Positions 1-30,107 of a DNA stretch of 30,416 nucleotides are shown one piece after another. The notes under the pieces are model-generated. The model saw only the letters and a list, made by a program, of their open reading frames with translations. It was not told the DNA's origin and made no database searches. Numbering within the stretch: the first letter of the stretch is position 1; the number at the start of each line of letters is the position of its first letter. The translations under genes were made by a program, and so were the position numbers. This DNA is from a virus, in IMG/VR virus record IMGVR_UViG_3300043463_000004, positions 1 to 30,416 of that record. One strand, 5' to 3'.

Positions 1-599
1 AAGAGATTCAGATGGTAATTTGGAAGCAAGCACAAAATGCTACTAAAGAAATGGCTGTAATCTTAGGTGAACCAGAGTGGTGTAAAGGTTATGGTATTCG
101 TAATACGCACCTGATTGCTATTGCACCTACTAAATCTACTGCTTTACTAATGGGTGGTGTATCAGAAGGTATTAACCCTGATCCAGCTATGAGTTATAAT
201 CAGACAACTTCTGCTGGTGAGATTGATCGTTTGAATCCTGTACTACTTGAGCTAATGAAAAAGAAAGGTGTCTACACCAAGAAACATGTTCAAGAGATTA
301 CAGATAAGCAAGGATCGGTACAGCACGTAGAGTGGTTAACGGCAGATGAGAAAGAGATTTTCAAAACAGCCTTTGAAATCAACCAGAAAGCTGTGTTAAG
401 ATTAGCATCTGCACGTAGTATGTATATTGATCAATGGCAGTCACTAAATCTGTTCTTTGCAGCAGATGAAGACCCTGCTTGGATTGCTGAAGTTCACGCT
501 GAAGCTTTCCGTGACCCTAATATCTTAGCGTTGTATTACATTTATACTCAAGCTGGTGTACAAGCTAGTAAAGGTGATGGTTGCGAGGCTTGTCAGTAA
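1..599 (+). CDS. nrdA: Ribonucleotide reductase class I large (alpha) subunit, C-terminal part; 5' end outside window
   Basis: This is the C-terminal end of the subunit that reduces ribonucleoside diphosphates to deoxyribonucleotides in the cytoplasm, feeding phage DNA replication. The frame is open to the left window edge (from base 3), so the ATG at 12 is internal and the start is missing. What is visible is diagnostic of the family: a GVSEGINP stretch like the conserved ATEGIEP segment, a Tyr-Tyr pair (codons 534-539) matching the radical-transfer tyrosines of NrdA, and a C-terminal Cys-x-x-Cys (GDGCEACQ) that shuttles electrons from thioredoxin or glutaredoxin to the active site. The stop overlaps the next start by one base (TAATG). 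The thioredoxin-like gene two places downstream is a likely reductant. No intein or intron is seen in this part. Confidence 0.93.
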   Translation, partial: EIQMVIWKQAQNATKEMAVILGEPEWCKGYGIRNTHLIAIAPTKSTALLMGGVSEGINPDPAMSYNQTTSAGEIDRLNPVLLELMKKKGVYTKKHVQEITDKQGSVQHVEWLTADEKEIFKTAFEINQKAVLRLASARSMYIDQWQSLNLFFAADEDPAWIAEVHAEAFRDPNILALYYIYTQAGVQASKGDGCEACQ

Positions 600-1207
600 T
601 GTTCTGTACTTACCTTACGATATACAGTGGTAACAACTTACCTCCTTTTTACGTAGGGTCTACCTCTGTAGCTAAGATCAATTCTGGTTACAGAGGTTCT
701 GTTTCTTCTATAGAATATAAATCTATTTGGAAATCAGAGTTAAAAGATAATCCTAAATTATTCAGAACAATCATACTGAGTAAACACAACACAAGAAAAG
801 AAGCATTGGAAAAAGAAAATAAATTGCACAAACTGATTGGTGTATCGAATAACACTTTGTATATCAATAAAGCAAATGCAATTCCAGATGGACAGTTTGG
901 AGTAAATACTGCAGGAGTTAACAATCCAATGTATGGAAAGAAACGACCAGATGCCTCCCGATTGATGTTAGAACGTAATCCTATGTTTAACAAAGAAATC
1001 TCAGAAAAAGTTAGGCAAAGTAAATTGTTATTGCATCATAGCGGAAAACATGCCTCAACCAGAAATTCTGATATAACTTTAGAAAAAGCATCAATTAGAA
1101 TGAAGGAAAATAACCCCAATAGTATTAGATGTTGTTGTATTGTTTGCAAGACAATAACTACTCCTTCTGCTATAATTAGATTTCACAATCACGAAAGGAA
1201 TATATGA
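599..1207 (+). CDS. GIY-YIG homing endonuclease, free-standing, with NUMOD-like tail
   Basis: Probable site-specific DNA nuclease that spreads its own gene between related phages. The N-terminus carries the GIY-YIG signature in divergent form: TIY at about residues 7-9 of the protein from the ATG at 599, followed by FYVGST and a GYRG arginine. The middle has NNPMYGKK and NPMF motifs like NUMOD3 DNA-binding repeats, and a late CCCIVC cysteine group may bind zinc. I chose ATG 599 (202 residues) because it overlaps the reductase stop as TAATG; an upstream TTG at 581 would lie inside the reductase. Its own stop overlaps the thioredoxin start as ATGA, so it is translationally coupled on both sides. 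It looks like an insertion into a reductase-thioredoxin operon, and appears richer in A and T than the reductase gene. Confidence 0.8.
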   Translation: MFCTYLTIYSGNNLPPFYVGSTSVAKINSGYRGSVSSIEYKSIWKSELKDNPKLFRTIILSKHNTRKEALEKENKLHKLIGVSNNTLYINKANAIPDGQFGVNTAGVNNPMYGKKRPDASRLMLERNPMFNKEISEKVRQSKLLLHHSGKHASTRNSDITLEKASIRMKENNPNSIRCCCIVCKTITTPSAIIRFHNHERNI

Positions 1208-13600: not shown

Positions 13601-14454
13601 GTTTGTGCAGTTGGTTTAGATTCTTTTTCGAGAGCTAAGTAGTACTTACGCATCTCAAGCATATCTTGTTTATAACCGTCTTGATCCTGCTTGTGTCTAA
13701 TCAAGTTGTACTTGAATAAGTTATCGGAAGCTTCTTGTAAACGCACAGATTCTTTCATCTGAGCATTCAATAAATCATTACGATCTTTTTCTGCAGTTTT
13801 TAGTGTATTTACTTTAGTAGCAATACCCAAATACAAATCCTGTTGAACTTTTAATTCTGAGTTAAACTTGTCAAGACCTTCACCTTTTGTTGGATCAAGA
13901 TCAGCAGCTTTAAGTTTACCTTTAATTTCATTGGCAATTCTACTGTATTCTTTTAACTGCGCTGTAGTTAAGAATATACCCTTTGAAGCAAGTTCTGCTC
14001 GATATGTTAAACTATCGTATTCTTGCGTGATAGAACGTACAGAACCAATTGCTGAATCAAATGGTGACTTTGATAATTCTCGGATATTTTCCAAGATAGC
14101 TTTGTACGGTTTTAAAGCCTCTTCAGTTGTAGCACCAAGGCTTCTTGCTAATTGCAATACACCAGCTTCAGCAGATGTACTACCTTTAGCCATATCTGTA
14201 TAACGGTTAGTTAATTTATCAAGTAAACTTGAAAGTTTAGATGAAGTGTCAACTATTTTGGTATCAGCTTTTGCTTTAGTTTCAGTAGCTTTAGCTGCTT
14301 TTTCAGTAGCGGAAGAAACCTTGTTGCTATTGCTGGTTAAGTCCTGCATTGGTTTATTTAATTTAGATACTTCTGTACCTAGAGCTTTAACTCTTTCTGC
14401 TGCGGTAACTAAATCATCTGTAATTACTACGAATTTTAATTCTGCTAAATCCAT
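10687..14454 (-). CDS. Tape measure protein
   Basis: A 1255-residue protein that sets tail length and is probably ejected with the genome. It has long alpha-helical and coiled-coil regions, a GQSPMMVLLQQGGQLRDQF motif typical of lambda gpH-type tape measures (about residues 398-418), a hydrophobic segment near 498-530 that could insert in the host membrane, and a C-terminal region with SFGDMVKSILVGLLKMEMQM and AKGTGLMGEAGPEAIMPLRRG, both common at tape-measure C-termini. Taking about 0.15 nm per residue, the tail would be near 190 nm; this is an estimate. It is separated from its usual neighbour, the assembly chaperone, by an inserted HNH nuclease gene. Its own Shine-Dalgarno (GAAAG) is weak. 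Confidence 0.95.
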   Translation of the reverse strand: MDLAELKFVVITDDLVTAAERVKALGTEVSKLNKPMQDLTSNSNKVSSATEKAAKATETKAKADTKIVDTSSKLSSLLDKLTNRYTDMAKGSTSAEAGVLQLARSLGATTEEALKPYKAILENIRELSKSPFDSAIGSVRSITQEYDSLTYRAELASKGIFLTTAQLKEYSRIANEIKGKLKAADLDPTKGEGLDKFNSELKVQQDLYLGIATKVNTLKTAEKDRNDLLNAQMKESVRLQEASDNLFKYNLIRHKQDQDGYKQDMLEMRKYYLALEKESKPTAQTAPARMDAAVDAYRQNQAKVTNEAAKANVYLAKEMERVNRLNAESDSVTSSTNNRLIRFEQELRKSGATAEEQSHKLAAYRKELIATQKAAGNRQVDYLSRALGPQITDIAVGLATGQSPMMVLLQQGGQLRDQFALAGVAGKDMGDMLTKATLGMVSSVKDVGVAVGGALVNAFVASGKAANKFLMDITGTSSALENMRYQIALMEGSNGKLMAAFRLAAGAITLLTSAILLLATVAIVAYIAALNDVIKEENALNRALNLTGAAMGMNSDMAYTAANNMKALGITVGDSVAVITSMAKAGGMSSDSLKLIAVTATRMKTAFGISIDDTVKKFKDLQEKPTDSLTKLAVQLGTIPVAVLKQVDAYERAGKSIDAARLATETYAKAGKDAADKTIENFGYITTLGINLKKIWDGTWDSIMGWGRKDTLVDQLKSAEDNLKAIQSMRGADVANSRTNQRMLASMKLVDDIKNQIAAEKDLETQKAQASAAASKFEDDKKKRDESAAKSKSELNAIDAFSKNIVEQATKAYVDQYGAVEDLTKSQTSLNKLHADPLWSKVPESIRQQVTALYEAAGANEKLVDAEQARSKQMAVIASLTGKADGFGKEYYSTLKTLDEAYVDGNISLEKYVDLLNKLYQTTPQAKAFANAQIDHVKTMADIASSRVGVSMQYEGDFKTADEKAAIKNLSDYRKSVADADSTYDKQVAEAAKIMTAKNLEEAKRLYKTQADEKKALAEDVHNRETYLLSDAYKRQAAIGTAFEDLFKGMGDAMVEFALTGKTSFGDMVKSILVGLLKMEMQMQMSSMFKATGGLSGILGTIGGYSGMSNVNSNAGTSTSIMFANGGSFDNGIQAFANGGSFTNSIVDSPTMFKFAKGTGLMGEAGPEAIMPLRRGSDGSLGVVAAGSSGSNVSVQVINNSNAQATTNETVDSKGNRKIEVVIGDMQAGEISRSGSASQKSIKSTFGLQPQLIRR

Positions 14455-14468
14455 TTTATACTTTCATT

Positions 14469-14996
14469 TTAAATCTTATTTGATTTACTTAAATTTTCTT
14501 TTGCAGGAATAACCTGAAGATTCCACGGGACATGCAAACCACATACATTTTTACCTTGTAATGGCACGATATGATCTACGTGATATTCTTCACCTGTATA
14601 GAGCTTGAACATTCTAGCACAAGCATATAACTCTTCAATCTTATTAAAATCTTCTACTGTTAACCAAGAAGGGGTCGCACTGAGTTTCCTTGCCCGTCTT
14701 TTTGCACTTTTAGCTATATATCTGTCTTTATTATCAAGATAATGTTTTCTAGAATATGTTGCACACAACGTGTTGATTTTATTTTTATTGGCAGATAAAT
14801 ACAAAGCTATTCTATCTTTGTTATCTTTATAGTAATCTTTCCTATATGTCGATAACTTATTTTTGTTAACTTCAGAATATATAGTAACGCATGATTTGCA
14901 ACTATATTGAAGACCATCTTTGGCAGCACTACGTTTACTAAAGTCTGAAAAAGATTTTTCCATATTACATTTACCACAAATTTTAAATAAGATCAC
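14469..14996 (-). CDS. HNH homing endonuclease, free-standing
   Basis: A nuclease of about 175 residues. It starts with a zinc-finger-like CGKC...CKSC pair (about residues 7-31), has a lysine-rich helical middle, and ends with a classical HNH motif, YHVDHIVPLQGKNVCGLHV and then NLQVIPAKENLSKSNK. I prefer a GTG start at 14996 because GGAG lies five bases upstream; a TTG at 15014 gives a frame 18 bases longer but lacks a site. It is inserted between the tail assembly chaperone and tape measure genes, which are usually adjacent. A long perfect inverted repeat lies just upstream. Expected to cut a cognate site in related phages lacking the insertion. Confidence 0.85.
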   Translation of the reverse strand: MILFKICGKCNMEKSFSDFSKRSAAKDGLQYSCKSCVTIYSEVNKNKLSTYRKDYYKDNKDRIALYLSANKNKINTLCATYSRKHYLDNKDRYIAKSAKRRARKLSATPSWLTVEDFNKIEELYACARMFKLYTGEEYHVDHIVPLQGKNVCGLHVPWNLQVIPAKENLSKSNKI

Positions 14997-15014
14997 AATT
15001 ACTCCACTGTACAA

Positions 15015-15892: not shown

Positions 15893-15921
15893 ATTATAGC
15901 ACAATTTTAAGGATAAATCAA
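15893..15921 (-). promoter_or_regulatory. Promoter for the tail operon
   Basis: Minus-strand TTGATT (15916-15921), 17-base spacer, TATAAT (15893-15898) with TG in the extended -10 position (TGCTATAAT). It lies between the GIY-YIG terminator and the tail chaperone gene, 33 bases before its start codon. A short dyad TAATCA...TGATTA overlaps the -10 and start region. Confidence 0.85.
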
Positions 15922-15930
15922 GAGGTACAA

Positions 15931-15964
15931 ACAAAGAAAAACCCAAGGGTGTTAACCTTGGGTT
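15931..15964 (-). terminator. Rho-independent terminator of the GIY-YIG gene
   Basis: On the minus strand AACCCAAGG (15964-15956) pairs with CCTTGGGTT (15948-15940) around a seven-base loop, followed by TTTTCTTTGT. The stop codon of the GIY-YIG gene lies in the loop, so the gene ends inside its own terminator. It insulates the nuclease from the tail promoter that follows. Confidence 0.85.
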
Positions 15965-16620
15965 ATGCTCCAACCTTTGACAGTCTTGTGTGCTTTTGAT
16001 TTGAACAATGTTTTAGAATCAACACATGTAAGTTTCTTGAAGTCTCTTCTGGTTGCTGTTATGGATGTACCATCAACATGTTCAAAAGTGTATTCTTTCA
16101 GATCACATTTAGATTTGTTCACCTTGTCAAGATTCTCCAGTAAACACCATCCTAATGCAGTAATAACTTTTGACTTAAATAAATCTGAAATTACAACATT
16201 GTATTTGTCAGTGAAGGATTGACGAGTTCCTGTAAAAGTCTCACCATCATGTATTCTTACAAGATTGTAAAGATTTTTATCAGCACGACCGTTGCCATTT
16301 CCTGAGTTTTTCTGTGATATCAATTTCCTGTCTTCTTCTGTAAATACATAGTTACCATTTCCACCACCACCTGATGCAATATTAACAAGTGTACCACCAT
16401 CGGATTTTAAACCGTAATATGCTATTAAATCTCTTTCAAGTTCAAATGCATACCATTCTTGTAAGTTAGATAAAATTATTTCGGCAACAAAACCATGTCT
16501 GTTGACAACATTCTTCCAATGAGGGTTTCTATTGTTTTTAGAATAAGCACGGTCACCCTTACCCTTACCAACGTAGAAAACTTCTCCATTTAATTTCTTG
16601 TGTAAATATACGTAGTACAT
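15952..16620 (-). CDS. GIY-YIG homing endonuclease cassette with own promoter and terminator
   Basis: 222 residues. The N-terminal GIY-YIG domain shows YYVYLHKK (GIY position), FYVGKGKGDRAY (YIG position with the basic cluster) and a later ELERDLI glutamate, then NIASGGGGNG. The C-terminal half has two similar repeats, about residues 126-160 (ETFTGTRQSF...SDLFKSKVITALGWCL) and 184-219 (TSITATRRDF...KTLFKSKAHKTVKGWSI), which look like a duplicated DNA-binding module of the kind attached to phage nucleases. It stands between the tail tube and tail chaperone genes. Its promoter (16655-16683) sits at a hairpin whose 3' arm holds the weak GGTGGGGA ribosome binding site; its terminator overlaps the stop. 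Confidence 0.87.
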   Translation of the reverse strand: MYYVYLHKKLNGEVFYVGKGKGDRAYSKNNRNPHWKNVVNRHGFVAEIILSNLQEWYAFELERDLIAYYGLKSDGGTLVNIASGGGGNGNYVFTEEDRKLISQKNSGNGNGRADKNLYNLVRIHDGETFTGTRQSFTDKYNVVISDLFKSKVITALGWCLLENLDKVNKSKCDLKEYTFEHVDGTSITATRRDFKKLTCVDSKTLFKSKAHKTVKGWSITQG

Positions 16621-16628
16621 AAAATAAA

Positions 16629-16656
16629 ATCCCCACCAGTGTTAACCAGTAGGGAT
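16629..16656 (-). promoter_or_regulatory. Hairpin covering the GIY-YIG ribosome binding site
   Basis: On the minus strand ATCCCTACTGGT (16656-16645) pairs with ACTGGTGGGGAT (16640-16629), twelve pairs including G-U pairs, around a TAAC loop, then TTTTATTTT. The 5' arm overlaps the -10 box and predicted start of the promoter at 16655-16683. It can act as terminator of the head operon and, in read-through RNA, as a cover for the nuclease ribosome binding site. Confidence 0.78.
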
Positions 16657-16683
16657 TGTATCATTAAATCAAATTAATGTCAA
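16655..16683 (-). promoter_or_regulatory. Promoter for the GIY-YIG cassette
   Basis: Minus-strand TTGACA (16678-16683), 17-base spacer, TACAAT (16655-16660), preceded by TGA in the extended -10 position. The -35 box overlaps the stop codon of the tail tube gene. The predicted start point falls at about 16648, inside the 5' arm of the hairpin that follows. Confidence 0.82.
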
Positions 16684-17888
16684 GCTGCAGAATCTTGAAT
16701 CTGAATTGTAGTAGCAGGTAGACCTGTAGTTGTAGCATCATTTAACAAAGCTTGGAAACTAGCTGATGCAATCAAACCAAGTTCATTATCCTCTTTGGAG
16801 AAGCTACCTAATTTTACTTTTGGTAGTGTGAAAGTAACGAATTCAGAATTAGCTGCGTTATCAGTAGTTAGTGTTAGTACAACAGAAACAGCAGTCTCGT
16901 CATTGAAGTAACTACGGAAAGTAGCATCTTGGAAGTAAACGCTCATGTTACCAGTAACACGAATACGACCAGTGAAAATCTCAGCTACAGAGTTAGAACC
17001 TACAGCAGTTGCGTTTTCAGTAGCACGTTCGACTGAGAAGTCAGCAGAAGTTACTAGAGCAACAGGTAGACCGTTTACAAGCATAACACCGTTTACAGCA
17101 GCAAAGATACCATTGGAGTTTTGTGCAGTTGGTGAAGTGAAGTATTGTGAAGTACCAGTTTGTGTTAAGTCTTTACCAGCAAAACCGAAATCTACAGTAG
17201 TTAGACCAGTAGCAGGTAACTGTACAGCCATACTGTTTAGTTTCATACCTGTGTAAACTTCAGACTGAGCAATATCAGCATACCATTCTTCGACAGTATA
17301 TGATTGATCGGTGTGACCAGTAGCAGGAACGAAAGTTGTCTTACCGATAGCAGTAACTGTAACAGAAGCGATTGGACCTTCTTCGACTAGAACAGTACCG
17401 TTAACTACTTTGACAGTTAGTACAGTAGCTGAAGCTGAAGCGATTAGCAAGTTCTTAGCTACGTTAGCAGTATCTAGACCAGCACCAGTTAAACGAACGA
17501 CTTGACCGACTTTAAAACCATCAGTTAAGAAATCACCAGTAGCACGAGTTACAGTGTAAAGAGCACCATCAGCAGCAATAGTTACGGAAGCACTAGATGA
17601 AGCTGGAGCAGTTGTAAAATCACGACCTACGATAGAACCCATAAAATCAGCATAAGATGCAGGAGAGAGTTCACCGTTTAAGCTACCTTCAGCAGAACGT
17701 ACACCGTGACGGAAGTCAGCGATTTGACGGTCAGTGCGAATTTCACCTGATTCATAAGTTTCTTTGGCTAGGTTAAAACTAGCAGTAACACGGCGAAGTA
17801 GTTTACCAGATGTATTACCTGCTAAAGTACCCCAAGTTGTTTCTTTCTTGTAGCCAACCTGTTTGGATGTACCTTTAGAAATTGTCAT
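16680..17888 (-). CDS. Major tail tube protein
   Basis: 402 residues, the probable subunit of the tail tube. The start MTISKGTSKQVGYKKETTWGTLAG and a following LLRRVTASFNLAKETYESGEIRTDRQIADFRHG are typical of the Phage_tube_2 type of tail tube protein, and the C-terminal part (DFSVERATENATAVGSNSVAEIFTGRIRVTGNMSVYFQD) fits the conserved tube fold. A middle section (about 95-185), rich in Thr, Val and Ala, may be an inserted surface domain, since many tube proteins are shorter. It follows the tail terminator gene after 66 bases, has an AAGGAA site, and is the last gene before the GIY-YIG cassette. Confidence 0.88.
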   Translation of the reverse strand: MTISKGTSKQVGYKKETTWGTLAGNTSGKLLRRVTASFNLAKETYESGEIRTDRQIADFRHGVRSAEGSLNGELSPASYADFMGSIVGRDFTTAPASSSASVTIAADGALYTVTRATGDFLTDGFKVGQVVRLTGAGLDTANVAKNLLIASASATVLTVKVVNGTVLVEEGPIASVTVTAIGKTTFVPATGHTDQSYTVEEWYADIAQSEVYTGMKLNSMAVQLPATGLTTVDFGFAGKDLTQTGTSQYFTSPTAQNSNGIFAAVNGVMLVNGLPVALVTSADFSVERATENATAVGSNSVAEIFTGRIRVTGNMSVYFQDATFRSYFNDETAVSVVLTLTTDNAANSEFVTFTLPKVKLGSFSKEDNELGLIASASFQALLNDATTTGLPATTIQIQDSAA

Positions 17889-29611: not shown

Positions 29612-29637
29612 TATTATTTCCTTTATAAACAACAATA

Positions 29638-29669: not shown

Positions 29670-29698
29670 ATTATATCATAGAATTGATAGTAATTCAA
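29670..29698 (-). promoter_or_regulatory. Promoter for the fiber operon
   Basis: Minus-strand TTGAAT (29693-29698), 17-base spacer, TATAAT (29670-29675), with TGA forming an extended -10. It lies in the 112-base gap between the GIY-YIG nuclease and the first fiber gene. That gap holds nothing else but the hairpin and the ribosome binding site. Confidence 0.82.
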
Positions 29699-29723: not shown

Positions 29724-30107
29724 CTAAATATTTCTTTTTCTGTATAACATATCAATGACAGAAGACGGGAACTTACCACCTTCTACAGTATTCCAACCCA
29801 TGTACTGCAATGGACGAAATATTTTCTCCAGTTCATAAGCCTTGTCTACATCGCATACACATAATCTAGTTTTTACTATATTATCTACACCGTAAGTACC
29901 AAAGGCAACATGCAAAGGATTATTTGTATTGTAAGAATTATTAAATTTTTTACAATGTTCCTTGAATCGTATATCAATCAGACGAGTAGTAACACCAACG
30001 TATCCCTGTGTGAATACGTCAGTGTGTTCTTTTAGGTGTAACCAATATAATACAGCAGTCTTATTATCCTGCAAGGGCTTTGTCTCGCATGACTCGTCAC
30101 GCAGCAT
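29724..30107 (-). CDS. GIY-YIG homing endonuclease, small, free-standing
   Basis: 127 residues. The GIY-YIG core appears as VLYWLHLKEH...GYVGVTTRLIDIRFKEHCKK (about 18-53), with the catalytic-type arginine in RFKEH and a glutamate in YELEKIFRPL; the GWNTVEGG ending is common in small phage GIY-YIG proteins. It is almost only a nuclease domain, with little room for a separate DNA-binding part. The ATG overlaps the end of the portal-like gene by 11 bases and has no clear ribosome binding site, so it depends on coupled translation. Inserted between the portal-like gene and the fiber promoter. Confidence 0.8.
   Translation of the reverse strand: MLRDESCETKPLQDNKTAVLYWLHLKEHTDVFTQGYVGVTTRLIDIRFKEHCKKFNNSYNTNNPLHVAFGTYGVDNIVKTRLCVCDVDKAYELEKIFRPLQYMGWNTVEGGKFPSSVIDMLYRKRNI

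Follow-up and report, generated by a model that had tools for sequence, protein, structure and literature searches.

In bacteriophage T4, the genes of the intron nucleases I-TevI, I-TevII and I-TevIII, as well as gene e, possess a promoter located inside the hairpin that covers the ribosome binding site (PMC2988022, PMC3014915). The same promoter-hairpin relation was described for two free-standing nucleases, segB of T4 and mobE of Aeromonas phage Aeh1 (PMC2988022). Other nuclease genes are associated with hairpins in a different manner: in T4 mobE and segF, terminators lie within the start of the coding sequence, and seg43(25) of Aeromonas phage 25 has a hairpin immediately ahead of a ribosome binding site that remains free (PMC2988022). 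The principle is already known, free-standing case included, and an earlier sequence-only reading of the DNA studied here, which set the free-standing nuclease apart from T4 I-TevI, needs qualifying on that point, since segB and Aeh1 mobE are also free-standing.

The locus described below, a GIY-YIG nuclease gene located after the tail tube gene in a group of freshwater phages, resembles the I-Tev genes and gene e in that its promoter lies in the 5′ arm of an inhibitory hairpin, which only read-through RNA is predicted to form. In contrast, the T4 genes use late (or middle) phage promoters and hiding of the ribosome binding site, while the present promoter is of the sigma70 type, the hairpin carries the T-run of a terminator, and the ribosome binding site is left unhidden in distant members. 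T4 segB and Aeh1 mobE belong to other nuclease families and sites, have T4-type promoters, and no terminator was described for their hairpin. As in T4 mobE, segF and seg43(25), terminator-like hairpins would limit nuclease RNA, and the placement in seg43(25) is similar to that in three distant relatives of the locus (L006, L007 and L212), just before a free ribosome binding site; however, none of these was described with a promoter start inside the terminator. A further parallel comes from IS10/Tn10, in which the fold-back of read-through transposase RNA protects the element from outside transcription. There, the element's own promoter starts inside the inverted repeat and only RNA from outside folds and is silenced, as proposed for the nuclease element, although the IS10/Tn10 repeat is a transposon end and not a short terminator hairpin. 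What appears to be new here is the sigma70-type promoter, the terminator-type hairpin, its fixed register with the -10 box, the gain as part of a cassette and the recurrence before unrelated genes.

The nuclease gene and its leader

The window, i.e., the whole stretch of DNA analysed, is a 30.4-kb viral metagenome record (30,416 nt, IMGVR_UViG_3300043463_000004) with most of its genes on the minus strand, among them, in order, those of the major capsid protein (PF03864), the tail tube protein (PF18906), the nuclease and the tail assembly chaperone. Among isolates, Limnohabitans phage DC31 is the closest, with 78% DNA identity over 71% of a 2.6-kb query, and Curvibacter phage P26059A comes next; in DC31 the site after the tail tube gene is empty, without a nuclease. 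Promoters and terminators are not discussed in the papers describing P26059A and DC31, and no paper on a sigma70 promoter-in-terminator form was found in the literature searched, which lacks most subscription journals. The features of the locus are as follows.

16680-17888, minus strand: tail tube (major tail) protein gene (PF18906, E 2e-38), source of the upstream read-through RNA
16678-16683, minus strand: -35 box TTGACA, its TTG invariant in 8 aligned relatives
16655-16660, minus strand: -10 box TACAAT (TATAAT in all relatives)
16647-16650, minus strand: predicted transcription start region, from the -10 spacing, within the 5′ arm of the hairpin
16629-16656, minus strand: 12-pair hairpin ATCCCTACTGGT-TAAC-ACTGGTGGGGAT with loop TAAC, from the computed fold and covariation in relatives
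16630-16637, minus strand: candidate ribosome binding site GGTGGGGA, in the 3′ arm, 9 bases from the ATG at 16620
16621-16628, minus strand: T-run TTTATTTT, which adjoins the stem; a T-run is kept in each of the 8 relatives
15952-16620, minus strand: GIY-YIG homing-type endonuclease of 222 aa, matching PHROG 314 (homing endonuclease, E 4e-11)
15940-15964, minus strand: resident terminator AACCCAAGG..CCTTGGGTT and T-run, at the downstream end of the nuclease gene, whose stop codon it overlaps
15893-15921, minus strand: resident promoter TTGATT-N17-TATAAT, serving the tail assembly chaperone gene and conserved in empty-site relatives, DC31 among them

The upstream gene, previously taken for a head gene, encodes the tail tube protein, and its stop codon, located 59 bases from the ATG of the nuclease, is a TGA that forms part of the -35 box. 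The nuclease has the Y...YVG motif and the conserved R, E and N of the GIY-YIG catalytic domain, with residues Y3, Y16/G18, R24, E60/E62, N80 and YVG-K-G invariant in 8 relatives, while its Pfam match is sub-threshold (0.045). Its last codons and stop (ACC CAA GGT TAA) are encoded by the 5′ arm of the resident terminator (15964-15940, minus strand). The window contains four homing-type nucleases in all, the other three being a GIY-YIG protein with a NUMOD3-like motif (581-1207, plus strand), an endonuclease VII/HNH-like protein (14469-15014, minus strand) and a short GIY-YIG protein (29724-30107, minus strand). Two consecutive hairpins of 13 pairs each, the second being CTATATTTAAAGA..TCTTTAAATATAG, are located between a small tail chaperone-like gene and the endonuclease VII/HNH-like gene (15082-15020, minus strand). 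An Rfam scan of the window gave no match.

The nuclease promoter has a 17-base spacer, a TG one base before the -10 box and 11 out of 12 consensus positions. Its consensus is that of sigma70 (TTGACA-N17-TATAAT) and not that of phage late or middle promoters, in agreement with the sequence-only reading. Spacing places the predicted start at 16648, the nearest purines being 16650 and 16647, hence inside the 5′ arm of the hairpin, which begins with the AT of the -10 box; the same sequence-based prediction holds for seven relatives. The hairpin itself, with three G-U among its 12 pairs, has a folding energy of -15.5 kcal/mol alone, and in the read-through leader, where a 13th pair forms, the fold reaches -22.4 kcal/mol, compared to -11.9 +/- 2.7 for shuffled sequences (z -3.9, 0/200). 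RNA begun at 16648 is computed to be essentially open (-2.9 kcal/mol, centroid 0), so the six or so residual pairs previously considered possible in the short RNA are not borne out. The promoter TTGACA-N17-TACAAT and the 12-pair hairpin, with a predicted start in its 5′ arm, were confirmed by sequence, folding and conservation.

The T-run TTTATTTT, overlooked in the sequence-only reading, makes the site resemble an intrinsic terminator, the stem of 13 pairs with 5 GC being directly followed by the tail TTATTTTATG. Because this stem has only a moderate GC content and an A interrupts the T-run, termination may be partial. As anticipated, the candidate ribosome binding site GGTGGGGA pairs weakly with the 16S tail (-5.5 kcal/mol duplex). 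In the window and its close relatives L004, L005 and L014 (hereafter the close group), the start codon immediately follows the T-run, and the only candidate ribosome binding site, weak in each (-4.0 to -6.4 kcal/mol), is that of the 3′ arm.

Conservation of the promoter-hairpin register

Occupied contigs, mostly of metagenomic origin, were found by searches from the nuclease and from the tail gene. The nuclease shares 82% protein identity with that of L004, 63% with L014, 61% with L005 and 38% with both L006 and L007. A further contig, L212, has a nuclease relative at the same tail-gene site, while L298 has the tail gene and the promoter-hairpin element without the nuclease. Throughout the eight aligned sequences (the window and seven relatives), TTG-N17-TANAAT followed by ATCC...GGAT and a T-run is kept in one register, whereas spacer and loop sequences vary.

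Covariation was assessed on the outer eight pairs of the stem in 7 distinct sequences, with loops removed to align the arms. All 56 of 56 cells are standard pairs (100%, compared to 85% in shuffled controls), which answers in the affirmative the question, raised by the sequence-only reading, of whether nuclease-bearing relatives keep the stem pairing. Double changes occupy 10 cells vs 4.0 +/- 1.4 after shuffling, and the covariation score is 0.571 vs 0.233, neither value being reached in 500 shuffles; these figures are to be read with a control that leaves relatedness in and with four of the eight outer pairs invariant, the other four being changed on both sides, and the small number of distinct sequences limits the test. 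Sliding one arm of the stem lowers the pairing to 46-59%, and when the 3′ arms are permuted among the five most divergent members, 40/40 pairing is obtained only for the true assignment. This comparative evidence, the strongest available, confirms, as far as covariation can, that the hairpin layout is more than chance.

The inverted repeat could instead act chiefly as a DNA site for self-repression by the nuclease, or as an RNase III site. I-TevI provides a precedent for the former, repressing its own late promoter via an operator that resembles its homing site (PMC2988022). However, the stem sequence varies freely while its pairing is kept, which points to an RNA structure and not to a fixed DNA site, and the element recurs before unrelated genes, making this explanation highly improbable.

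The sequence-only reading proposed that the long RNA hides GGTGGGGA and the short RNA exposes it, in which case the T-run would be a mere AT-rich spacer. This logic is documented for I-TevI, I-TevII, I-TevIII, segB and Aeh1 mobE (PMC2988022), and it fits the close group, with its sole candidate site in the 3′ arm, a read-through leader that folds and a promoter-started RNA computed to be unable to form the stem. In contrast, L006, L007 and L212 keep the hairpin, the register and the T-run (GGATTTTTCATTT) but have a strong separate ribosome binding site, GAAAGGAG or AAAAGGAG, downstream of the hairpin (-8.5 to -8.9 kcal/mol). Since these sites lie beyond the hairpin and L298 has the element without a nuclease, hiding is not the shared function. 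The T-run is conserved in all members and the candidate site is weak where it does lie in the arm, so that hiding on its own is an unlikely account: exposure of the site by promoter-started RNA may apply in the close group, but not in L006, L007 and L212.

What these sequences share is the promoter inside an intrinsic-terminator-like hairpin, with hiding of the ribosome binding site as a possible second layer in the close group only. Ending the upstream RNA is a possible shared function, because stem, loop and T-run fit an intrinsic terminator and because these phages as a rule have a terminator immediately after the tail tube gene.

The element belongs to nucleases at the tail-gene site, most of the wider GIY-YIG relatives (80 loci) being without it. 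In bacterial genomes, one search returned a single nuclease relative (Celeribacter, L279). In two contigs (L234 and L217), a nuclease of the same family occupies the same tail-gene gap on the opposite strand. A different leader, GTATAATAGCGAAAACCCCG..CGGGGCTTCTAACC, precedes GIY-YIG genes in L224, L232, L235, L241, L259, L267, L270 and L277; in this leader, which is possibly a separate RNA motif, a conserved hairpin and then the tail CTTCTAACC come after a promoter.

Occupied sites, empty sites and a proposed mechanism

Seven occupied loci and dozens of empty ones, with intact flanks, display the presence/absence pattern of homing at this site. In empty-site relatives, the tail gene is directly followed by the resident terminator, a sigma70 promoter and the chaperone gene; in the occupied members of the close group, this terminator and promoter persist downstream of the nuclease. 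The occupied L005 and the empty L335 share 97% identity along 182 bases, from about three codons ahead of the nuclease stop onward, and on the left side identity stops at the tail gene stop, placing the promoter-hairpin inside the insert. Therefore, this comparison shows, as far as the limits of identity tell, that the close relatives acquired promoter, hairpin and nuclease together as a single unit. Among the distant members, only the coding part and its ribosome binding site are missing from L298 compared to L006 and L007; L298 may have lost the nuclease or represent the state before insertion.

The terminators of the empty sites also bear on a simpler explanation, according to which the hairpin is merely the terminator of the tail tube gene ahead of the nuclease, the promoter being a chance match or unused. 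All empty-site relatives do have a terminator right after the tail gene, and most viral TATAATCCC..GGGATTTTT sites lack -35 enrichment. However, the -35 and -10 boxes are found at a 17-base spacing in every occupied relative despite a diverged spacer, the resident terminator and promoter are still present behind the nuclease, and six promoters of the same type (TTGAnn-N17-TGnTAnAAT) precede genes in the window, which leaves this explanation quite improbable.

Taken as a whole, the element is probably an intrinsic terminator with a sigma70-type promoter built into it. Polymerase coming from the tail tube gene would transcribe the whole inverted repeat and the T-run, upon which the hairpin would form and most read-through transcripts would stop. 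Polymerase from the promoter at 16683-16655 would start inside the 5′ arm, and its RNA, without about eight bases of that arm, would form no hairpin (the loss of pairing being computed) and continue into the nuclease. The nuclease would be shielded from the high-level transcription of the structural genes and supplied steadily by its own promoter. In the close group, any RNA that escaped termination would, in addition, be translated poorly, similarly to T4 I-TevI. The comparison of occupied and empty sites shows that in close relatives the element travels with the nuclease as a cassette at the tail gene stop codon, ahead of the resident terminator and promoter.

A counterpoint to this mechanism is that two other strong promoters of the phage, at 29698 and 2780, precede complete leader hairpins; hence avoiding its own hairpin is not a general rule for promoters in this phage. 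At 2780-2718 (minus strand), the leader of the gene at 2681 has the strong promoter TTGATT-N17-TGATATAAT and, from about +5, a complete terminator-like hairpin, ATAGGTCACC-TTCG-GGTGGCCTAT and TTTTC. This layout, hairpin included, is conserved in DC31 (L343, near 14042-14150) and its geometry is opposite to that of the nuclease element. In the second such leader, at 29698-29638 (minus strand), the promoter TTGAAT-N17-TGATATAAT is directly followed by a perfect 8-pair hairpin, ACCCCGAG..CTCGGGGT, the gene starting at 29635 or 29611.

Recurrence before unrelated genes

The pattern TTGACA-N17-TATAATCC-N(12-30)-GGATTTTT has 11 exact matches in the viral collection, compared to a chance expectation of about 0.6, which is a rough base-composition estimate and indicative only. 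In-register stems of at least 8 pairs are found in 11/11. Four of the matches are contigs of the tail site (three distinct elements) and the remainder precede unrelated genes, among them, judging from sequence only, putative genes for a lysozyme-like protein and a clamp-loader-like ATPase. In several of this remainder, an ATG follows a few bases past the T-run.

A second comparison was made on GATATAATCC..GGATTTTT sites, with a stem defined by at least 7 pairs. A TTG at spacing 17 is present in 6 out of 24 clusters with a stem and in 1 out of 48 without (Fisher p 0.005, or 0.03 without two members of the tail-site nuclease family), and no comparable TTG peak was observed at other spacings of these sites. 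The looser TATAATCCC..GGGATTTTT, tried alone as a marker, was abandoned: 5/53 clusters have a TG before the -10 box and 2/53 a good -35 box, which is about chance. Because this looser pattern gave no signal, the promoter-terminator module is a minority among such sites. A strict stem finder for promoter-terminator distances was likewise set aside, as it retained too few cases and misses stems with internal loops.

In eight loci of 45-48 kb phages (L084, L086, L093, L094, L117, L127, L145 and L146), ATGCTATAATCCC..GGGATTTTT is located before a portal-like gene, with divergent upstream sequence, varying stems and no -35 box. These loci are possibly an independent case of a promoter in a terminator.

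A tentative proposal, advanced with slightly less than even confidence, is that these sites represent a recurrent compact phage module: a consensus sigma70 promoter with its -10 box at the foot of an intrinsic terminator and a start codon shortly after the T-run, the ribosome binding site often being supplied by the 3′ arm. Such a module would insulate the downstream gene while starting its transcription. Unrelated phages would have reached it on repeated occasions, and for homing nucleases it would be an insulated promoter that moves with them.

If the proposed mechanism is true, about 60 bases would suffice for three tasks: terminating the message from upstream, initiating the following one and, for the close group, preventing the translation of leaked message. 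This would explain how a mobile nuclease can reside behind a phage gene that ranks among the most heavily expressed without being overproduced or disturbing its neighbours. The promoter-hairpin layout also provides a simple search pattern. A control principle known mainly from T4-like phages would then extend to host-type promoters of unrelated phages.
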